From contig NZ_PEFL01000001.1 in assembly GCF_002754475.1 (NCBI RefSeq), positions 2,728,001-2,792,000 of the forward strand: a stretch of 64,000 bases of DNA, read 5' to 3'. Below are positions 45,010 to 55,245 of the stretch, piece by piece. Positions within the stretch are counted from its first letter, which is position 1, and the number at the start of each line of letters is the position of its first letter. The notes beneath the pieces were generated by a model. It was not told the DNA's origin. It worked only from the letters and a program-made list of their open reading frames with translations, and made no database searches. The position numbers were made by a program, and so were the translations under genes. The stretch is from Comamonas sp. 26 (GTDB lineage Bacteria > Pseudomonadota > Gammaproteobacteria > Burkholderiales > Burkholderiaceae_C).

Positions 45010-45783
45010 TCAGCGGTAATCTGCAGAGCAGGCATAGAAGTGAGGGTTGCTCAAATCTCGCTTGCCATAGCTCAGAACATCTCCATTAAGTGTATGAATC
45101 TGCCCCCCTGCAGCAGCCAGCACCGCATGGCCTGCAGCGATATCCCACTCCATGGTGCGCCCCAAGCGGGGATAGAGGTCCGCTTCGCCTTCGGCAACCA
45201 GACAAATCTTGAGCGATGAGCCTGCACTTTTGCGCGACCGCACCAAACGTCCATTGAGAAACTGATCCAGCGCATCAGCATCGCCGTGCGAACGACTGGC
45301 CACCACATCAAGGCCATCCTCTGGAATGCTTCTGCATCCAATGGCTTGGCGCTTCCCCTGCACCTCCAGCCATGCACCAAGTCCTATGGCACCCGCGTAC
45401 ATGCGATCCAGCGCTGGTGCGAAAACGACGCCCAGCACAGGGATTCCATTTTCGATCAGCGCGATATTGACGGTGAACTCGCCATTGCGATTGATGAATT
45501 CCTTGGTGCCATCAAGAGGATCAACCAGCCAGAAGCATTGCCCCATCTCAGGCACATAGCCTGCGGCAGCCGCTTCTTCAGAAACGACAGGAAACTGCGA
45601 CGGCAAGGCACCCAGACGCTCAAGAATCAGGTGCTCTGCCTTTTCGTCGGCTTCAGTCACGGGCGAAGCATCTTGCTTGCCGCGCACCTCAAAGTCGCTG
45701 CGGTAGATCCCCATGATTAAAGCACCCGCTTCGCGGGTGATAGCCATAACATCTTCAAGCAGTGCGTCTTGCGTCTGGTTCAC
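45010..45783 (-). CDS. cysQ: CysQ, 3'(2'),5'-bisphosphate nucleotidase
   Basis: The 257-residue protein is an inositol-monophosphatase-fold phosphatase of the CysQ type, with metal ligands in VVSEEAAA, the signature WLVDPLDGTKEFI, GEFTVNIALIE, and EWDIAAGHAVLAAAGG near the C-terminus. It converts 3'-phosphoadenosine-5'-phosphate (PAP) to AMP and phosphate, relieving inhibition of sulfotransferases. It is divergent from the cysD/cysNC genes and next to a sulfotransferase unit, which makes PAP removal its likely task. The ATG is preceded by AGGAG eight bases upstream (CACAGGAGATTTTTGTG). Confidence 0.95.
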   Translation of the reverse strand: MNQTQDALLEDVMAITREAGALIMGIYRSDFEVRGKQDASPVTEADEKAEHLILERLGALPSQFPVVSEEAAAAGYVPEMGQCFWLVDPLDGTKEFINRNGEFTVNIALIENGIPVLGVVFAPALDRMYAGAIGLGAWLEVQGKRQAIGCRSIPEDGLDVVASRSHGDADALDQFLNGRLVRSRKSAGSSLKICLVAEGEADLYPRLGRTMEWDIAAGHAVLAAAGGQIHTLNGDVLSYGKRDLSNPHFYACSADYR

Positions 45784-45856
45784 AAAAATCTCCTGTGTTG
45801 TTATTCATGTGGTCCGTTTGGCCTATGCGCCAATCTGAGGACAGGCCGACAGTAAA

Positions 45857-45894
45857 TGCATTCGGATCTTCGCAAATAAGCGAGTGAATGTTTA
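45857..45894. promoter_or_regulatory. Nested dyad in the cysQ/cysD divergent region
   Basis: TCGC and GCGA face each other across AAATAA, and ATTC and GAAT stand outside them, giving an interrupted inverted repeat just before the cysD-fusion start. It could be bound by the DNA-binding region that the adjacent gene encodes, or by a CysB-type regulator. No consensus was matched. Confidence 0.35.
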
Positions 45895-45906
45895 ACAGGA
45901 ATGCGC

Positions 45907-47820
45907 ATGGCTGTTGGTAAGAAACTCAGTGTTCAGGAAATCAATCCACTGCGAATTCAGGCCGTGAACTTGAGGCTTGAAGGGAAAACACTCAAAGAAG
46001 TCGGCATGGCGACAGGCCTGTCAACCCCAACCATCATTGCCGCCCATAAAGCCTGGCAGAAAGGAGGATGGAACGCTGTCCTGGTGCGCGAGCGTGGTCG
46101 TAAACCAGGAGAAGGCCGCACCTTGTCGGCCATCCAGGAGCAAGACATCTATGTCCAGCTGGTCAGCACCCAGCCCGCCGAGCATGGCCTGCCTTTTCTG
46201 CTGTGGCAGCTGGAAGCCATGCAACAGCTGATCCTTCAGCGCCAGCAGCTTGAGTTGCCCGAGCGCACCAACGCCCAATATCTGCAGCGCTGGAATCTCA
46301 ATGCCGAACGCCCCGTCAAGCGCATGAAGCAGGCATCCAGCAATGTGCAGCGCTGGTACGCCAGCACTTATCTGGACATCTGCGAGCAAGCCAGAAAAGA
46401 GAGTGCCAGCATTGTCTGGATCGACGATTTTGGAGCCCATAACAACTGCCCCGGACGCCTCAGGCACGGCATCCTGCGTGCCGTCAACAACCGCGGCAAG
46501 GTGTATTGGCAACCTTATGAGGGCAGCTTGTGCGCCGCACATCTGGAAGATTTTTTTGATCGCTTGAGGCGCTCCAGCGAGGGCAAGATTTTTGCCTTGC
46601 TTCCTGCCATGCAGTGGCAGCGCGCCGCCACCTTTTCATCGCTTGCCAGCGACAGCAACGACCGACTGCGCCTGTTTCATCTGCCAGCCGCCACAGAGAT
46701 GCTCAGGCAGTCGAGTGAATTGGCCAGCAGCGTTTTGAAGGCTGCGCAAGACACATCGCAGACACCGAAAAATACCCCCGTAAAAACCCCAGAACCACCA
46801 AATCTCGACCCTATGGCGAGCATGACGCAGCAACTTCTAAAACATCAATTCGCGCAAAAATTTTCTTTAACGGACTCCTACAGTTGGCAGCATCCAAAAC
46901 AAAAAACCAAGGAGAAATCTGTGGTGCTGACTCATTTGCAAAGGCTGGAATCCGAAAGTATTCAGGCCATGCGCGAGGTTGTTGCTGAGGCTGAAAACCC
47001 CGTCATGCTTTATTCCATCGGCAAAGACAGTGCAGTCATGCTGCACCTGGCAATGAAGGCGTTTTACCCCGCCAAGCCTCCGTTTCCTTTGCTGCATGTA
47101 GATACGACCTGGAAATTCCAGGAGATGTATCGCTTTCGCGATCAGATGGCCGCGAAGCTGGGAATGGATCTGCTGGTACACATCAACCCCGAAGGCCTTG
47201 AGATGGGTATCAGCCCGTTCAAGCATGGCTCGCAGATTCACACCGATGTGATGAAGACCGAAGGTCTGAAGCAGGCGCTGGACAAATACGGCTTTGATGC
47301 CGCATTTGGCGGCGCGCGCCGCGATGAAGAAAAGTCACGGGCGAAGGAACGTATCTTCTCTTTCCGCTCTGACCAGCATCGCTGGGATCCAAAGAATCAA
47401 CGTCCCGAGCTCTGGCACCTCTACAACACACGCAAGAACAAGGGGGAATCGATTCGCGTGTTTCCGCTATCCAACTGGACCGAGCTGGATATCTGGCAAT
47501 ACATCTATCTGGAAAACATCCCAATTGTTCCCTTGTACCTCTCGGCACCACGTCCTGTCGTAGAGCGTGACGGGACACTGCTAATGGTCGATGACGAGCG
47601 CATGCCGCTCAAGAGCGGTGAAGTTCCCATGATGCGCAATGTGCGCTTTCGCACTCTGGGTTGCTACCCACTGACGGGGGCCGTCGAGTCCGACGCCAAT
47701 AGCTTGCCAAAGATCATTCAAGAAATGCTGCTGACCCGTACTTCGGAGCGACAGGGCCGGATGATCGACCACGACTCGGCCGCATCTATGGAAAAGAAGA
47801 AGCAAGAGGGGTATTTCTGA
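45907..47820 (+). CDS. cysD: Transposase-like DNA-binding region in frame with CysD (sulfate adenylyltransferase subunit 2)
   Basis: One frame of 637 residues joins two unrelated parts. Residues about 10-65 form an HTH of the IS630/winged-helix kind ([20 protein letters not shown]). Residues about 165-275 resemble a worn IS630 DDE domain: WIDDFG keeps acidic residues, but the usual D-N and W-L-N-x-x-E sites are not recognisable. A proline-rich linker follows ([16 protein letters not shown]). From Val339 the sequence is a complete CysD (299 residues; E. coli 302) with the PP-loop [10 protein letters not shown] and [15 protein letters not shown]. CysD with CysN makes APS from sulfate and ATP. 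I prefer the ATG at 45907, six bases after AGGA, over 45901. An internal GTG with its own ribosome-binding site may also give plain CysD. Confidence 0.88.
46908..46923 (+). promoter_or_regulatory. Internal ribosome-binding site and GTG start for CysD
   Basis: AAGGAG stands six bases before a GTG at 46921, exactly where CysD homology begins. Translation here would give an ordinary 299-residue CysD without the DNA-binding region. The same gene could therefore make two proteins. Confidence 0.6.
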
Positions 47821-49733
47821 TGTCACATGTATCTGCACTTATCTCTGAAGATATCGAAAAATACCTGAAGGCACATGAGCAAAAAAGCCTGCTGCGCTTC
47901 ATCACCTGCGGCAGCGTAGATGACGGCAAGAGCACCCTCATCGGGCGCTTGCTATATGAGTCCAAGATGCTCTTCGAAGATCAGATGGAAGCACTGGTCG
48001 CGGACTCCAAGAAAGTCGGCACGCAGGGTGGCGATTTGGATTTCGCGCTGCTGGTAGATGGTCTGGCCGCAGAGCGCGAGCAAGGCATCACCATTGATGT
48101 GGCCTACCGCTTCTTCTCTACCGATCAGCGCAAGTTCATCGTGGCAGACACTCCGGGCCACGAGCAATACACTCGCAACATGGTCACCGGCGCATCGACT
48201 GCTGATGTGGCGGTTGTGATGATCGACGCTCGTCGAGGCGTGCTGACACAGTCCAGACGCCACAGCTATCTGGCTTCACTGATCGGTATCCGGAAAATTG
48301 TGCTGGCCGTCAACAAGATGGACCTGATGGGCTATTCCGAAAAAGTCTTCGACGACATCGTGGCCGATTACCGCGAGTTCGCCAAGAAGATCAATCTGGA
48401 AGACATCACGGCCATCCCCATGTCGGCCTTGCGCGGCGAAAACATCACCGAACAAAGCGAACACATGCCCTGGTACCACGGCACCACGCTAATGGGCTAC
48501 CTTGAAACGGTGGAAATTGACGAAGCACGTCAGCAAAAACTGCCATTTCGCATGCCTGTTCAATGGGTCAACCGCCCTAATCTGGATTTTCGCGGTTTCG
48601 CGGGCTGCATTGCCAGCGGTCAGATCAGCCCCGGTGATTCGGTTCGCATTCTGCCCAGTGGCCGTGTCACCAAGGTCGCACGCATAGTCACGCAGGATGG
48701 CGATCTTCAGCAAGCAGTTGCCGGGCAATCCATCACGTTGACATTGGCCGACGAAGTCGATTGCAGCCGTGGTGATGTGATTGCTGTTGCCGATGCACCT
48801 TCGGATGTGGCAGATCAGTTCCAGGTCACGCTGATCTGGATGCATGAGCAACCCATGCTGGGTGGACGCCCTTATCTGCTGAAGATGGGCGGCAAGACCA
48901 TTCCCGTCACCTTCGCTGCGCCCAAATACAAGATCAACGTCAACACTTTGGAGCAGCTGGCCGCCAAGGAGCTGGCTCTCAATGAAATCGGCGTCTGCAA
49001 TCTCTCCAGCAGCCAGCCTATCGCTTTTGATGCCTATAAGGACAACCGCGAGACCGGCAGCTTCATTCTGATTGACCGACTGAGCAATGCCACGGTAGGC
49101 GCTGGCCTGATTGATTTTTCGCTGCGTCGCTCTCAGAACATTCACATGCAGCATGTGAACGTGAATCAAAAAGACCGCGCCGAGCGTTTGCAGCAAAAGC
49201 CTGCCCTTCTCTGGTTCACGGGCTTGTCAGGTGCAGGAAAGTCGACGATTGCCAACCTGCTCGAAATGCAGCTGCACGCCCGCGGCAGACACACCTATCT
49301 CCTTGATGGAGACAACGTGCGCCACGGACTGAACCGAGACCTTGGCTTTACCGATGCAGACCGGGTTGAGAACATTCGCCGCGTGGCCGAGGTGGGCAAG
49401 CTGTTTGTGGACGCAGGACTGATTGCCATCACGGCATTCATCTCCCCCTTCCAGGCTGAGCGCGAAATGGCCCGCAAGCTGGTAAGCGATGGCGAATTTC
49501 TGGAAGTGTTCATTGATACACCTCTGTCTGTCGCCGAAGAACGTGACCCCAAGGGGCTCTACAAAAAGGTGCGCCGGGGGGAACTGAAAAACTTCACAGG
49601 CATCGACTCGCCCTTTGAAGTTCCGGAAAACCCGGACATCCATATTTCCACGACAGCGCTAACAGCGCAGCAAGCCGTGGACAGGATCATCGCTGAATTG
49701 GTGGCGCGCGAAATCATCACTGCAGACAGCTGA
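47820..49733 (+). CDS. cysNC: CysNC, sulfate adenylyltransferase GTPase subunit fused to APS kinase
   Basis: The 637-residue protein starts with the CysN GTPase: G1 loop GSVDDGKS at 31-38, [19 protein letters not shown], and NKMD. A beta-barrel middle follows. From about residue 450 it has an APS kinase with the P-loop GLSGAGKS at 468-475, [15 protein letters not shown] and [20 protein letters not shown]. With CysD it turns sulfate into APS and then PAPS. Its start overlaps the cysD stop by one base, so translation is coupled. Fused CysNC proteins make PAPS, which sulfotransferases need. No PAPS or sulfite reductase gene is near. Confidence 0.97.
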
Positions 49734-49788
49734 AACAGCTCTGCACCTGAATTGCGGCTTTAGCAAACCCTTCTTTCTTCTTTCCCCT

Positions 49789-49834
49789 GGCAGCGCAATG
49801 CAGGTCCGCAAGCACCGGGCATTGCGCTGCCTTT
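49789..49834 (+). terminator. Strong hairpin between cysNC and the sulfotransferase unit
   Basis: GGCAGCGCAATGC pairs perfectly over 13 bp with GCATTGCGCTGCC around a 17-base loop, followed by TTT. It is placed 55 bases after cysNC and 16 before the next gene. It may end the cysD-cysNC message, let part of the polymerase through as an attenuator, or protect a processed end. A promoter for the next gene is not obvious in the short space. Confidence 0.8.
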
Positions 49835-49849
49835 AAAGAGATTCAGATC

Positions 49850-50959
49850 ATGGACAAGCAAACCATCAATGAAAAACTTCTCACGGGTGAAACCTGGTCA
49901 GAGTTTTGCGACCACCTCAAGCGCTGTGGTCAGCAGATTCTTCGCCCGGAAACCCCTGCAGACCCTGCCACGCGCGCTGAAGGCTACCGGTACCTGACCC
50001 GGCTGCTGCGCATCGCGCTGGAAATGCATGTGGAGTTTGCCGACCCGGCGTTTCCCAGCTTTTTCAAGACATCGCATGAAACCGCCAAGATTGGCGCAGA
50101 CAACCCCGACAACATCTACGAATACTCTCGCCTGAACGGTGCCATGGAGTACCGCATTCATGGCAATCGGGGCAGTGTTTCATACCTGAGCTTTTGCACG
50201 CAAAAAGGGGGCTACGAAACCGACGGCCGCATGATCGTGACCGGCTTCCTCGATGCGACCCAATTGATGACTGACAAGGACGGTAATTTCGAGATCATCA
50301 TCAGCCGCGAACCTCAGCCCGGTAACTGGCTCCCGATGGAAAACAACTCCGTTTCCATTCTGGTGCGCCAGACCTTCATGGACCGCAAAAGTGAAGTTCC
50401 CGCCAAGCTTTCCATTGAGCGAATCGGAACGCAAGACAAGCCCGGCCCACTGGATCCACTGGTTTTTGCGCAGTCCTTGCAGCGCGCCTCCTCCTTTGTC
50501 GAAAACACCGCTGCGCTTTTTGCAGACTGGGCTCAAAGCTATCTTCCTCATAGCAATCAGCTGCCACCAGCCGACCAGGCTTACTGTCAGTCAGTGGGAG
50601 GAGACCCCAACATCTTCTACTACCACTCTCACTGGAAGCTTGATGAAGACCAGGCGCTGGTGATTCATGTGGACAAAGTCCCCGAGTGCTCATTCTGGAA
50701 TCTGCAGATCAACAACTACTGGCTGGAGTCTCTGGACTACCGCCATCACCAGATCTGCATCAACAAACACCAGGCCCAGTACGACGACAAGGGCGGCGTG
50801 ACTCTGGTACTGAGCGAGCGAAACCCCGGCCTTGCCAACTGGCTGCAGACCGCAGGCGTTCGGGAAGGGACCATGTGCCTGCGCTGGGTAGGGGCCAAGG
50901 AGCAATGCCACCCCACCACACAAGTCGTTTCCATGGACCAACTGGCGGAGACTGTATGA
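49850..50959 (+). CDS. DUF1214-domain protein
   Basis: The 369-residue protein has a C-terminal DUF1214 domain with its characteristic FWNLQINNYWLESLDYRHHQ and LSERNPGLANWLQTAGVREG. The N-terminal 200 residues show no family I can name (FKTSHETAKIGADNPDNIYE). No signal peptide or membrane helix is visible. DUF1214 proteins have no settled function but are often next to sulfotransferases and dehydrogenases in steroid-like or aromatic catabolic clusters, from memory. Its stop overlaps the sulfotransferase start in an ATGA, so the two are translated together. Confidence 0.85.
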   Translation: MDKQTINEKLLTGETWSEFCDHLKRCGQQILRPETPADPATRAEGYRYLTRLLRIALEMHVEFADPAFPSFFKTSHETAKIGADNPDNIYEYSRLNGAMEYRIHGNRGSVSYLSFCTQKGGYETDGRMIVTGFLDATQLMTDKDGNFEIIISREPQPGNWLPMENNSVSILVRQTFMDRKSEVPAKLSIERIGTQDKPGPLDPLVFAQSLQRASSFVENTAALFADWAQSYLPHSNQLPPADQAYCQSVGGDPNIFYYHSHWKLDEDQALVIHVDKVPECSFWNLQINNYWLESLDYRHHQICINKHQAQYDDKGGVTLVLSERNPGLANWLQTAGVREGTMCLRWVGAKEQCHPTTQVVSMDQLAETV

Positions 50960-52152
50960 ACGTCCACACCCCACTCCAAACGCCCCAAACGCTTCAGGTC
51001 GAAGAGCTGCTGCAGGCAGCATGTGGCCGAACCCCCGGCTTGACCGATTTCGGCGATGACAACTACCGCCAGGCACTGGCAGTGCTAACCCAGTCGCTGA
51101 ACACGCAAGCCAAGCTCTCATCTGCCGGCCTTGTCATGATGCGCGAGCGCCTGGTGGGCCAGCTCGTCAACCGTCTGATCATGGAAGACTATTTCAAGCG
51201 CTTCCCAGAAATTGACCAAATTGAAATTGACGACCCCTTGGTTATCGTTGGCCTGCCACGTACGGGCACCACCATGCTGCAACGCACGCTGGCGGTGGAC
51301 CCACGCTTTTATTCCGCAGCCTGGTGGGAAACCCGCTACCCCGCACCACTCGTGGGGGAAGGCCCGCAAGATGCCGCAACTCGCATCGAGTTGGCCAAAG
51401 CCGAAGTGGCGCAGACCATTGAAGCCATCCCGCAGATTCTGTCTATCCACCCAATGAACGCCACACTGTGCGACGAGGAATTCATGCTCATGGAGCATTC
51501 CTTTCTCTGCGCCATGGACGCTTATGCCGATGTCCCCAGCTACACCGCCTGGCTGGACCAACAGGATCAACGACCTGTCTATAAGCAGCTCAAGAAGATG
51601 CTTCAGTTCCTGCAGTGGCAAAAAAGCCAGCGTGGCGAGCCACAGGGGCAGCGCTGGCTGCTTAAGGCTCCCCAGCATTTGCACACCCTTGAGATATTGC
51701 TTTCGGTGTTTCCCAAGGCACAGGTCATTTTGACCCACCGTGAGCCAGCGCAGACCATTCCATCCATGGCCAGCATGGCCCACACACTGTGGCAAATCTA
51801 CAGCGACACACCAGACCCGCTCTCGACGGGTCGCCAGTGGAACACCCGCATGGCTCGCGGTATTCATCACACCATGCAAGTTCGCGATCAGCAGGATACG
51901 GCCCGCTTTCTGGACATTCACTTCTCCGATACTGTGGAAAATCCCATGGCAGTGCTGGAGGCGGTGTATCAGTTTGCAGGGTTGCCATTCACCGAAAAGG
52001 CTCGCACCGACGCTCAGCAATGGCTGTCCAGCAATGGCCGTGAAAAGCGCGCAGGCCATGACTACAGTCTGGAGACCTTCGGGCTGAGCGAGCAACAGTT
52101 GCAGACCGACTACGCACAGTACCGTGCCCGTCACCTGCAAACTGCGCACTAA
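50956..52152 (+). CDS. PAPS-dependent sulfotransferase (Sulfotransfer_3 family)
   Basis: The 398-residue protein has the 5'-phosphosulfate-binding loop VGLPRTGTTMLQR at residues 98-110 and the 3'-phosphate-binding segment QVILTHREPAQTIPSM near 256-271, the two fingerprints of sulfotransferases that move sulfate from PAPS to a hydroxyl or amine. The substrate cannot be read from sequence. The start is the ATG in the ATGA overlap with the DUF1214 gene. Its neighbours make PAPS (CysD, CysNC) and clear PAP (CysQ), which strongly suggests that this enzyme is their purpose. It is probably cytoplasmic. Confidence 0.93.
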   Translation: MNVHTPLQTPQTLQVEELLQAACGRTPGLTDFGDDNYRQALAVLTQSLNTQAKLSSAGLVMMRERLVGQLVNRLIMEDYFKRFPEIDQIEIDDPLVIVGLPRTGTTMLQRTLAVDPRFYSAAWWETRYPAPLVGEGPQDAATRIELAKAEVAQTIEAIPQILSIHPMNATLCDEEFMLMEHSFLCAMDAYADVPSYTAWLDQQDQRPVYKQLKKMLQFLQWQKSQRGEPQGQRWLLKAPQHLHTLEILLSVFPKAQVILTHREPAQTIPSMASMAHTLWQIYSDTPDPLSTGRQWNTRMARGIHHTMQVRDQQDTARFLDIHFSDTVENPMAVLEAVYQFAGLPFTEKARTDAQQWLSSNGREKRAGHDYSLETFGLSEQQLQTDYAQYRARHLQTAH

Positions 52153-52168
52153 GCGAGAAGACTGAATC

Positions 52169-52888
52169 ATGGAAAAAATCATGTTCAGTCTGTGGCGCCC
52201 CGAGCGGCAGTCCGCAGAGCACTGGCGGGATGCCCTGATCAGACTTCAAGACATGCTGGAAGCCCTTGGAGCCCGGGAAATACGCGTGATGGTCGTCGAC
52301 CAGGACGTGGAAAAAGCATCCCTGCAGCGGATGACGGCCAGTTCCCAGCCACCGGACGGGATGCTCAGCATCAGGCTTGAAGGTACTAGCAGGGTTGGCC
52401 TTGTAATCGAATTGCTGCAAAAGCATGTGGCTCGGCTGCACGCCTACCAAGTCAAAGAAAGCATGCCCCGCACGGAAAAGCGCAGAGCGCGCAAAGCACA
52501 GCTGGGTATCAAAAATCGTATCGGCGAGCGTGCACCCGGCATGTGCCAGGTGGCCCTGTTCAAGTGCCCTCCTCGACTGCAGCGCGAACAGTGGAGCAGC
52601 TACTGGCGTGAACACGGATTCAATGCCTACATCCTTCAATCGATTTTTGACTGCCGGCAGAACACCGTCATCAAGGCACTGACATCGGGCGCCCCGGAGA
52701 TTGATGCCATTGTCGAAGAGCACTACCCAGACGCGGCCGTTGGCAATCCTGATGGCTTCTACGGCACCCAGGGGAATTCAGAGCTTCTCCATGAACGCGA
52801 GCAGGCCACATCCGAGTCCGTGTGCCGATTCATGGACTTTGGCAGCCTGGACTGCATTCTCACCAGCTTCTACCAAGTCAGCGCTTGA
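52169..52888 (+). CDS. EthD-like protein with two similar halves
   Basis: The 239-residue protein appears to contain two ferredoxin-like dimeric alpha/beta-barrel units of the EthD type. The first half begins MFSLWRPERQSAEHWRDALI and the second, near residue 128, begins ALFKCPPRLQREQWSSYWRE. In both, a beta strand leads into a helix with a conserved W or H near its end. EthD domains act in small-molecule catabolism, sometimes as hydroxylase auxiliaries or cyclases. A basic linker (RTEKRRARKAQLGIKNRIGE) lies between. It is 16 bases downstream of the sulfotransferase gene. Assignment is tentative. Confidence 0.65.
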   Translation: MEKIMFSLWRPERQSAEHWRDALIRLQDMLEALGAREIRVMVVDQDVEKASLQRMTASSQPPDGMLSIRLEGTSRVGLVIELLQKHVARLHAYQVKESMPRTEKRRARKAQLGIKNRIGERAPGMCQVALFKCPPRLQREQWSSYWREHGFNAYILQSIFDCRQNTVIKALTSGAPEIDAIVEEHYPDAAVGNPDGFYGTQGNSELLHEREQATSESVCRFMDFGSLDCILTSFYQVSA

Positions 52889-52923
52889 AGCCCGACCAAC
52901 AACAACAGGAGACAGACAGACCC

Positions 52924-53379
52924 ATGCTAGACCTCGAAGCCATAGAACTCATCAAACAACTGAAAGCGCGTTACTTCCGCTCCATCGATACCTGCGACAT
53001 CGAAACCTTGAAGTCAATACTGACCCCGGACATCAAGTTGGCCTTCAAAAGCCCTGCCTATGAGTTTCATCTGGAAGGTCTGGACAAGGCGCTGGACTTC
53101 TACAAAACCTCTTTCACCAAAACCCGTTTGGCCATGCACAACGGCCATACACCGGAAATCGAGGTCAGTGGCCACGAAGCCACGGGCCTCTGGTATCTGA
53201 ACTACGTCTTTATCAACCTCGAAGAAAAGACCCATATGCATGGCGGTGCCATCTATGAGGACCGCTATATCAAGCGGGATGGTCGCTGGTGGATTGCCCA
53301 GACGGGCTACAAGACCTTGCTGGAAACCATTCAACCCTTGAGCGAACAGTTGCAGATCACCTCCAAGCCCATCAACTGA
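52924..53379 (+). CDS. SnoaL-like (NTF2 fold) protein 1
   Basis: From the ATG at 52924 (AGGAGACAGACAGACCC upstream) the protein has 151 residues of the SnoaL_4 type. Dehydratases and isomerases of this fold act on steroids, polyketides and bile acids. It shows Tyr17 and Asp22 in KARYFRSID, and His72 and His75 in MHNGHTPEI, an arrangement similar to the Tyr/Asp/His set of bile-acid 7-alpha-dehydratase BaiE. It ends QITSKPIN. It is about half-identical to the second SnoaL-like protein at 54733-55194. An elimination on a sulfated or hydroxylated compound is plausible but not shown. Confidence 0.88.
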   Translation: MLDLEAIELIKQLKARYFRSIDTCDIETLKSILTPDIKLAFKSPAYEFHLEGLDKALDFYKTSFTKTRLAMHNGHTPEIEVSGHEATGLWYLNYVFINLEEKTHMHGGAIYEDRYIKRDGRWWIAQTGYKTLLETIQPLSEQLQITSKPIN

Positions 53380-53398
53380 TTCAGAAAGGAAAGTGCCA

Positions 53399-53878
53399 AT
53401 GACCAAATCAGCCAATCTCGTCACCTCCATCACGGTGGAAATCAATGCGCCGGCCAGTCTGGTCTGGGAGGTTCTGACAGATCTGGACAACTACAAACAC
53501 TGGAACAGCTTCTGCTTCAGTGCACGCTGCGGCATGCAAATCAACGACCTGGTTGAAATGTTGACTCGTCACCCCGACACAGGGGAGACCTGGCCCGTCA
53601 ACGAATATCTGGTGGCCTGCGAGCCAGAGTTGCTGCTGTCCTGGGAACAGCGCCCCGTGCCGGAAAACAAAGATGCAGCACGCCGTGATCAGTACGTGGA
53701 GGCCCTTGATGCCCATCGCTGTACCTACTTCACCACGGACCAATTTCTCGGCATCAACGCCGACACCATCATGGCCGAGCACGGTGCCTGGGTAAAAAAA
53801 GCCTTTGACCAGGTTGCCCGCGATCTCAAAAAACGTGCCGAAGCACTGCAGGCCGCGCGTGCCGCGATGCACGCTTGA
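53399..53878 (+). CDS. SRPBCC-family protein
   Basis: From the ATG at 53399, preceded by AGGAAAG, the protein has 159 residues with a START-like SRPBCC fold: SITVEINAPASLVWEVLTDL, a DNYKHWNSF turn and a C-terminal long helix (VKKAFDQVARDLKKRAEALQ). These proteins enclose hydrophobic ligands; many are polyketide cyclases or binding proteins. No catalytic residues can be named. It is placed between the first SnoaL-like gene and the dehydrogenase gene. Confidence 0.85.
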   Translation: MTKSANLVTSITVEINAPASLVWEVLTDLDNYKHWNSFCFSARCGMQINDLVEMLTRHPDTGETWPVNEYLVACEPELLLSWEQRPVPENKDAARRDQYVEALDAHRCTYFTTDQFLGINADTIMAEHGAWVKKAFDQVARDLKKRAEALQAARAAMHA

Positions 53879-53919
53879 GCCCAGCGATCCAGAAACACAA
53901 AAATCTTAAGGAGACATAT

Positions 53920-54714
53920 ATGCTTTTGAAGGACAAAGTCATCATCATCTCTGGCATTGGGCCCGGAATGGGTATCAAGCTGGCCTTGCGTGCCGCGGAA
54001 TATGAAGCCAAGGCCGTGGTGCTGGCGGCGCGAACTCAATCCATGCTGGACGACACGGAGGCAGCAATCCGCGCCGCCGGACATCAATGCGAAATTCTCA
54101 AGGTCGCCACCGACATCTCGAAACCCGAGCAGTGCAAGAAACTGGCCGAGCTAACGATTGAGAAGTTTGGCCGTATCGACGCCTTGATCAACTCAGCCTA
54201 TGCACACGGAACCTGGGGCTCTTCCAGCAATTCATCCATGGATGATTGGCGCAAAGTCATGGAGGTCAACCTCTACGGCTCCATGAACATGACACAAGCG
54301 GTTGTTCCGCAGATGAAGAAACAAAAAGACGGCAGCATCGTGATGATCAACACCATGGCGACTCGCCGTCCCAACCAGCTGGAGGCGGGTTATGCCGTCT
54401 CCAAGGGTGCGCTCAAGACCGCTGTTCAATATCTGGCCGAGGACCTGGGCCCATTCGGCATTCGCGTCAACAGCACCTACAACGGCTGGATGTGGGGTGC
54501 TCCTGTCAAAGGCTACTTCCAGGCAGAAGCCAAGCGTCAGAGCGTCCCCATCGAGTCACTTGTGGATGTCATCGCCAAACAGATTCCATTGCGCAACGAG
54601 ATTCCCGACGATGCTGATTGCGCATCTGCAGCACTGTATTTGGCCAGCGACTATGCGCGTGTCGTGACTGGTGCCCAGCTTGATGTCAGCGGCGGTCACT
54701 ACCTGCCTAACTAA
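53920..54714 (+). CDS. Short-chain dehydrogenase/reductase
   Basis: From the ATG at 53920 (AAGGAGACATAT upstream) the protein has 264 residues. The cofactor loop is SGIGPGMG at 11-18, a variant of TGxxxGxG. The active Tyr158 and Lys162 lie in GYAVSKGAL; the usual catalytic Ser region reads INTMATRR, so the serine may be a Thr. It ends with LDVSGGHYLPN, as in classical SDRs. It oxidises or reduces a hydroxyl/keto group with NAD(P). It may prepare or process the hydroxyl that is sulfated, which is inference. Confidence 0.94.
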   Translation: MLLKDKVIIISGIGPGMGIKLALRAAEYEAKAVVLAARTQSMLDDTEAAIRAAGHQCEILKVATDISKPEQCKKLAELTIEKFGRIDALINSAYAHGTWGSSSNSSMDDWRKVMEVNLYGSMNMTQAVVPQMKKQKDGSIVMINTMATRRPNQLEAGYAVSKGALKTAVQYLAEDLGPFGIRVNSTYNGWMWGAPVKGYFQAEAKRQSVPIESLVDVIAKQIPLRNEIPDDADCASAALYLASDYARVVTGAQLDVSGGHYLPN

Positions 54715-54732
54715 GTCTTAGCGGAGAAAAAC

Positions 54733-55194
54733 ATGCAAACTCTTTTTGACATCGAAGAGATTAAACAACTCAAGGCACGTTACTTTCGAGGCATTGACAC
54801 CTGCCAGCTGGAACTCCTGCACACAGTTCTGAGCAAGGATGTGCATATTCGCTTCGACAGCCCGACTTACCAGTACGAAATCAATGGCATCAACGAAGCC
54901 ATGGACTTCTACCGCAATGCGTTCACTCATAGACGCTTTGGCATGCATAACGGGCACACACCTGAGATCAACGTAGAAGGCGATTCCGCCACTGGAATCT
55001 GGTACCTGAATGACTTGTTCATCAACCTCGACGAACAGACTATTCTGACCGGCAGTGCTCTATACGAGGACTGCTATATCAAGGTCGCTGGGCAATGGCG
55101 AATTCAACGTACAGGCTACAAGAGGCTGCTTGAAATGATTGAACCTCTGAGCAGTGATTGCCGCATCACATCGCGACCTATTGCGAGCAACTGA
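54733..55194 (+). CDS. SnoaL-like (NTF2 fold) protein 2
   Basis: The 153-residue protein is a paralogue of the SnoaL-like protein at 52924-53379. It keeps the same Tyr17, Asp22, His72 and His75 (KARYFRGID, MHNGHTPEI) and ends RITSRPIASN. The two differ most in residues 23-50 and 85-120, which may reflect different substrates or a heteromer. It starts 18 bases after the dehydrogenase gene, with GGAG ten bases before the ATG. A terminator follows, so it closes the unit. Confidence 0.9.
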   Translation: MQTLFDIEEIKQLKARYFRGIDTCQLELLHTVLSKDVHIRFDSPTYQYEINGINEAMDFYRNAFTHRRFGMHNGHTPEINVEGDSATGIWYLNDLFINLDEQTILTGSALYEDCYIKVAGQWRIQRTGYKRLLEMIEPLSSDCRITSRPIASN

Positions 55195-55216
55195 TGAGTG
55201 ACGCTTGGACGACTCC

Positions 55217-55245
55217 CAGGCGGGCACCCCCTGCCTGTTTTTGAG
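55217..55245 (+). terminator. Terminator of the sulfotransferase unit
   Basis: CAGGC-GGG pairs with CCC-T-GCCTG (one bulged base) around CACC, followed by TTTTT. It closes the plus-strand series. Bases 55246-55437 after it hold no gene I can support. Confidence 0.75.

Follow-up and report, generated by a model that had tools for sequence, protein, structure and literature searches.

What does a bacterium do with sulfate that it activates beside a sulfotransferase? The question is raised by a stretch of 64,000 nt from Comamonas sp. 26 (assembly GCF_002754475.1, contig NZ_PEFL01000001.1, positions 2,728,001-2,792,000, forward strand), called here the window. Ten neighbouring genes in it encode enzymes that make 3'-phosphoadenosine 5'-phosphosulfate (PAPS), a sulfotransferase, an enzyme that removes the by-product 3'-phosphoadenosine 5'-phosphate (PAP), and proteins of the DUF1214, EthD-like, SnoaL-like, SRPBCC and short-chain dehydrogenase/reductase (SDR) types. 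An initial annotation of the window had seen a dedicated sulfation pathway in which a SnoaL-like enzyme eliminates the sulfate. Our analysis supports the dedicated sulfation, and the elimination by SnoaL only in part. We propose that the genes form a self-contained sulfation module of aerobic steroid catabolism, in which a steroid hydroxyl would be sulfated, most likely for its removal, and we give this reading a probability of about 0.48. Sulfation itself is well supported. Co-occurrence links the module to steroids as substrate, and we infer both the leaving-group role of the sulfate and the roles of the DUF1214 and SRPBCC proteins.

The ten genes were scanned with Pfam and NCBIfam profiles at curated cut-offs, with matches listed to E <= 0.001. 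They are as follows.

45010..45783, minus strand: CysQ, 3'(2'),5'-bisphosphate nucleotidase, which removes PAP (TIGR01331, 294.7 bits; cut-off 228.8)
45901..47820, plus strand: CysD, sulfate adenylyltransferase small subunit, fused to an IS630-transposase-like N-terminal domain (TIGR02039, 510.5 bits; cut-off 396.6)
47820..49733, plus strand: CysNC, fusion of sulfate adenylyltransferase large subunit and adenosine 5'-phosphosulfate (APS) kinase (PRK05506, 1049.9 bits; cut-off 715)
49850..50959, plus strand: DUF1214 protein (PF06742, 45.6 bits; cut-off 25)
50956..52152, plus strand: sulfotransferase (Sulfotransfer_3) of 398 residues (PF13469, 132.1 bits; cut-off 27)
52169..52888, plus strand: EthD-like protein, a label without Pfam or NCBIfam match; homologues in 28 of 80 related loci
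52924..53379, plus strand: SnoaL-like protein 1, candidate BaiE-like dehydratase (SnoaL_4, PF13577, 82.5 bits; cut-off 24)
53399..53878, plus strand: SRPBCC/polyketide cyclase-like protein (Polyketide_cyc2, PF10604, 36.6 bits; cut-off 27.4)
53920..54714, plus strand: SDR (adh_short_C2, PF13561, 150.7 bits; cut-off 27)
54733..55194, plus strand: SnoaL-like protein 2, candidate BaiE-like dehydratase (SnoaL_4, PF13577, 83.5 bits; cut-off 24)

Nine of the ten assignments in the initial annotation thus have the support of curated profiles, the EthD-like protein being the one without a match at E <= 0.001. The genes from CysD to the second SnoaL lie on the same strand, as had been stated, and their coordinates describe one operon in the order CysD, CysNC, DUF1214, sulfotransferase, EthD-like, SnoaL, SRPBCC, SDR and SnoaL, with successive intergenic gaps of -1, 116, -4, 16, 35, 19, 41 and 18 bp. 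CysQ is divergent from CysD, with 117 bp between them.

The start of the sulfotransferase was placed at 50956, and most homologues among the matches listed have 395 residues. The loop GLPRTGTT (residues 99-106), R262 and S270 are invariant in 18 aligned rows, the window copy included; we take them to be PAPS-binding motifs, namely the 5'-phosphosulfate loop and the 3'-phosphate Arg/Ser pair. The prediction that the protein is a PAPS-dependent Sulfotransfer_3 enzyme is well supported. It gives the one PF00685 match in the whole genome, and sulfotransferases of its kind are rare, being present in 3 of 200 genomes of the family (E <= 1e-40) and in 4 of 199 Pseudomonas genomes (E <= 1e-120). Full-length homologues with solved structures are 2ZQ5 (E = 1e-48) and 2Z6V (E = 1e-36), presumably mycobacterial proteins; both are Sulfotransfer_3 proteins like the window enzyme and were deposited as "putative uncharacterized protein".

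Related loci were collected by a scan seeded with the sulfotransferase alignment alone, and their genes were counted with a codon-usage gene caller written for the analysis. The scan found 117 loci, and the best 80, from 9 genera, were kept. DUF1214 accompanies the sulfotransferase in all 80, CysNC and an orthologous SDR in 78 each, and SRPBCC in 75. The DUF1214 and sulfotransferase genes lie on one strand and in the same order in every one of the 80 loci, and they overlap by 4 bp in 75, as they do in the window. SnoaL-like open reading frames were present in 56 loci by clustering and in 52 by profile, which makes DUF1214 and SRPBCC the steadier partners. The check by co-occurrence across genomes that had been suggested for this gene set therefore came out in its favour, the genes being conserved together in 80 loci of 9 genera.

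PAP removal belongs to the module in two forms. CysQ is found in 27 loci and a DHH-motif protein in 51; no locus has both. Two loci, L014 and L043, have neither, their contigs being 9.9 and 8.1 kb long. So steady a presence of one of the two proteins suggests that the module does produce PAP. In the DHH-motif protein (for example L061:12048-13025) the motifs NGDADG, DHH and GGGR, which we read as those of DHH and DHHA1 domains, are invariant in 11 rows. The protein had no Pfam match at E = 0.001, and the single solved match of its profile up to E = 0.5 was the PAP phosphatase NrnA, a weak one (E = 0.33). Standing where CysQ is absent, it is a candidate PAP phosphatase family. Two architectures result, one with a fused CysD and CysQ (27 loci) and one with a plain CysD and the DHH-motif protein (50 loci); a further locus has the DHH-motif protein and no CysD called. 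In the tree, the locus of Pseudomonas linyingensis (L034) falls within the clade of fused CysD and CysQ yet carries plain CysD and the DHH-motif protein, as though the genes for making PAPS and for removing PAP had been swapped together.

The operon is predicted to make PAPS, and a second set of sulfate-activating genes, probably the one for cysteine synthesis, lies elsewhere in the genome. There are three PAPS_reduct matches: one is the window CysD, and the other two lie at 1.346-1.348 Mb of contig C1. That second stretch holds CysN (TIGR02034, over its cut-off) and CysD (PRK12563, over its cut-off), together with CysH and a sulfite/nitrite-reductase-like gene, both below their cut-offs. The remark that no reductive sulfur genes lie near the module thus holds for CysH. 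The second stretch contains no APS kinase, and the window CysNC is the only true one found in the genome; a second PF01583 match (22 bits) was rejected, the gene being read as SRP54/Ffh. In a sample of 200 genomes from the family, an APS kinase is found in 43 (E < 1e-40) and this type of CysH in 35, and 30 of those 35 have no APS kinase at the same threshold. CysH therefore appears to work from APS and not from PAPS, which appears to leave the PAPS of the window free for the sulfotransferase. Since CysH and the sulfite-reductase-like gene accompany the second CysD/CysN pair, the CysD and CysNC of the window are probably not for cysteine. The initial annotation had considered that they might be the only assimilatory copies; this fails for CysD and CysN, which have a second pair, and for the APS kinase it is disfavoured by the co-occurrence counts. 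The separate CysD/CysN/CysH set, together with the neighbours conserved in 80 loci, argues for a dedicated sulfation.

Steroids, terpenoids and aromatic acids had been left open as substrates, and the genomes that carry the module favour steroids. For a KshA_C search we chose 40 of the 80 loci and searched 38 of their genomes (those of L017 and L057 were left out); all 38 matched the 3-ketosteroid 9-alpha-hydroxylase KshA at E < 1e-50, and the window genome likewise has a match, at E = 8.5e-57 (C1:3010357). In 199 Pseudomonas genomes KshA was present in 27 at E <= 1e-50 and in 30 at E <= 1e-20. At the stricter threshold it was found in 4 of 4 genomes with the sulfotransferase and in 23 of 195 without it (Fisher p = 2.8e-4), and in 3 of 3 (p = 2.0e-3) when G624, the module genome at the centre of the sample, was set aside; these p-values are optimistic, the positives being few and related and kinship being uncorrected. 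Some loci also have steroid genes beside them. In Pseudomonas sp. BN411 a Rieske oxygenase next to the module matches solved KshA at E = 8e-93. In two Pseudomonas genomes, 60 kb around or beside the module hold KshA, HsaA-like and HsaC-like genes, the latter two named from best NCBIfam matches below equivalog cut-offs, as well as acetaldehyde dehydrogenase and hydroxyoxovalerate aldolase, over cut-off in both; a KstD-like gene (below cut-off) came up in the scan of one of the two. A gene of the 9,10-seco type lies within 10 kb of the module in 24 of the 80 loci (17 Pseudomonas, 6 Cupriavidus and 1 Halopseudomonas). The module thus tracks steroid catabolism, a link that is new and that rests on co-occurrence. 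It shares KshA, and overlapping genera, with the 9,10-seco degradation of steroids in Comamonas testosteroni TA441 and other Proteobacteria. Proteobacterial steroid catabolism is patchy, according to excerpts of a survey (PMC4810484), and the genera listed there, Burkholderia, Comamonas, Cupriavidus, Pseudomonas and others, overlap with the hosts of the module.

In the mechanism that we propose, CysD and CysNC would make PAPS from sulfate for the module, the sulfotransferase would move the sulfo group onto a hydroxyl of a steroid or steroid-derived intermediate, and CysQ, or the DHH-motif protein in relatives, would destroy the PAP formed. The sulfate would most likely be a leaving group for a hydroxyl that an ordinary dehydratase cannot remove. 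DUF1214 and SRPBCC would be the core handling or eliminating proteins, and the BaiE-like SnoaL proteins and the SDR would finish the reaction or process neighbouring hydroxyls. A more specific proposal is that, in some Proteobacteria, aerobic steroid catabolism has a sulfate-activation step, in which the module's own PAPS serves to sulfate a steroid hydroxyl and DUF1214 or SRPBCC proteins, in a new role, then eliminate the sulfate. This is tentative, and we hold it to be possible rather than probable.

Among proteins of solved structure, both SnoaL proteins come closest to the bile-acid dehydratase BaiE (E = 4e-24 for the first and 5e-23 for the second). Y18, D23 and H73 (first-row numbering) do not vary among 10 aligned rows, which include both window copies, and the same Tyr, Asp and His stand at the aligned positions of BaiE, which we take to be its active-site positions. 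Both proteins are, judged by these residues, candidate BaiE-like dehydratases; BaiE itself acts without sulfation. A ring hydroxyl is also the target of SteC, a BaiE-like SnoaL protein of C. testosteroni TA441, which removes the 12-beta-hydroxyl according to excerpts of PMC13101464. The idea that SnoaL eliminates the sulfate is supported only in part: with SnoaL in only 52-56 of 80 loci the core of the module cannot depend on a nearby one. As a general eliminase SnoaL is weakened, and any general handling of the sulfated product would have to be the work of DUF1214, SRPBCC, the SDR or a gene at another place, unless the sulfate is lost spontaneously. For DUF1214 the structure of an orthologue, 6ANS, has been solved; its sequence aligns end to end and with no visible difference with the DUF1214 protein of Burkholderia cenocepacia (L051:8895-10001). 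A fold search returned 6ANS and two uncharacterised Vibrio proteins at the top, so that the fold gives no function.

Sulfate is used as a leaving group by CurM and by olefin-synthase sulfotransferases, which depend on PAPS. A plant precedent is LGS1 of sorghum, likewise a sulfotransferase, which acts in hormone biosynthesis and is likened here without sequence comparison (excerpts of PMC8713700).

Several findings weigh against the proposed sulfation of steroids for removal, and some of them speak for other explanations. The best scores of CysH (L088:9192-9827) are with PAPS-reductase models, all of them under cut-off (127 bits for the best, against 154), and no APS-reductase model matches it at E <= 1e-20. 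Of the three genomes of the family that carry the sulfotransferase, G104 (76% complete) shows no APS kinase. If CysH needed PAPS, then CysNC would be needed for cysteine too. CysD and CysNC might in that case serve cysteine synthesis, alone or alongside sulfation, their linkage with the sulfotransferase being secondary; CysDNC are normally assimilatory, and no true APS kinase other than CysNC was found. The second CysD/CysN set with its CysH, the 30 of 35 genomes that have this CysH and no APS kinase, and the conserved linkage with the sulfotransferase nevertheless make this the least probable of the explanations considered, even though the CysH scores speak otherwise. The steroid link has its own gaps. 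We know of no sulfated intermediate. KshA is about 230 kb from the module in the window genome, with no close linkage. In 56 of the 80 loci, including all 5 of Comamonas and all 19 of Burkholderia, none of the tested steroid genes lies within 10 kb. The control for KshA enrichment was drawn from Pseudomonas only and not from Burkholderiaceae, its p-values are optimistic as said, and only 4 of the 27 KshA-bearing Pseudomonas genomes carry the module, which means that steroid degraders generally do not need it. The distance to KshA in the window genome and the lack of the tested steroid genes near the Comamonas and Burkholderia loci would fit a substrate that is another alicyclic or terpenoid alcohol, with KshA and the module merely sharing versatile degraders as hosts. 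We find this improbable, since all 38 module genomes searched have KshA while the base rate in Pseudomonas is 27 of 199 (E <= 1e-50), and since some loci have HsaA-, HsaC- and KstD-like neighbours.

The main rival concerns the purpose of the sulfate. Sulfotransferases commonly conjugate, and sulfation could make a steroid or another hydrophobic alcohol more soluble, less toxic or better retained, the sulfate being kept or hydrolysed later. No enzyme of the module has been shown to eliminate sulfate, and SnoaL is absent from 24 (clustering) to 28 (profile) of the 80 loci. DUF1214, SRPBCC and SDR, on the other hand, are steady in 75-80 of 80 loci, which suggests that the product is processed further, and there is no sulfatase among the ten window genes, to which the screen for one was confined. 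Conjugation is on balance unlikely, and it is the alternative that we take most seriously. A removal of a different kind would follow the olefin synthases, in which case an acyl thioester, perhaps of an acid from a steroid side chain or from ring cleavage, would be sulfated at its beta-hydroxyl and then undergo decarboxylative elimination. The profile of the sulfotransferase family does match the olefin-synthase and CurM sulfotransferase domains (4GOX and 4GBM) weakly (E = 2e-4 and 9e-3, respectively), and matches with about 32% identity on Planktothrix plasmids are annotated as type I polyketide synthase. Those domains, however, work on polyketides attached to a carrier, with a thioesterase coming next, whereas neither a carrier protein nor a thioesterase domain occurs among the ten genes, and the closest solved relatives of the window sulfotransferase are free-standing. 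We regard this route as very improbable, only slightly less so than the cysteine explanation.

Bacterial steroid breakdown is known in detail from a few strains, and PAPS costs two or more ATP equivalents. The sulfation of a steroid intermediate at that price would be an unexpected catabolic route, and the module points to an undescribed sulfation step in the consumption of steroids by bacteria. If sulfation for removal is right, it would give a function to this DUF1214 family, whose structure 6ANS has been without a role, and explain why the module is conserved in Comamonas, Pseudomonas, Burkholderia, Cupriavidus and others. It would also be a means of enzymatic removal of steroid hydroxyls, useful for the removal of pollutants and for steroid manufacture. 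In the literature covered, that under open licence in PubMed Central (PMC), no description of the module was found, and the word "sulfotransferase" has 0 occurrences in the main text of PMC13101464, PMC4810484 and PMC8399759.

The CysD gene encodes a fusion of 639 residues, a feature that the initial annotation had overlooked. Residues 1 to about 320 (window positions 45901-46860) are IS630-transposase-like, with 62 bits to NF033545 (IS630; below its cut-off of 100) and a match of about 28% to IS1471. In our reading of the alignment two of the three catalytic acidic positions seen in IS1471, the second and the third, are lost; the domain is therefore probably inactive, an exapted domain that is perhaps DNA-binding. 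The structure model of the fused CysD was poor (mean predicted local distance difference test score, pLDDT, of 57.5), and its matches were not used as evidence. In the open-licence PMC literature we found no paper that mentions CysD and IS630 along with sulfate adenylyltransferase. Among the 120 matches listed, homologues that carry the whole fusion are common. The fused form was rejected as a marker of sulfotransferase modules, since it is also found where this sulfotransferase is not: of 48 genomes in the family to which genome G551 belongs, 38 have a CysD match in an open frame of more than 560 residues, and the sulfotransferase was present in 0 of 12 stretches retrieved from that family.

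A LuxR-type (GerE) regulator (for example L082:16253-17449) stands at 57 of the 80 loci and was not called in the Comamonas loci (L007-L011). Outside these loci, matches to the sulfotransferase on a Novosphingobium ES2-1 plasmid and in Acaryochloris and Mycolicibacterium have no annotated DUF1214 nearby. Distant relatives occur on three sphingomonad plasmids, where sulfotransferases 34-40% identical have SnoaL/NTF2 and SDR genes around them, joined by DUF1214 in two cases and by EthD in one; no CysDNC appears in the stretches shown around the three, for which the gene tables are incomplete. In Sphingobium herbicidovorans (L112:8971-11090) a related sulfotransferase overlaps a gene annotated as haloalkane dehalogenase, a class of enzymes that displace leaving groups.

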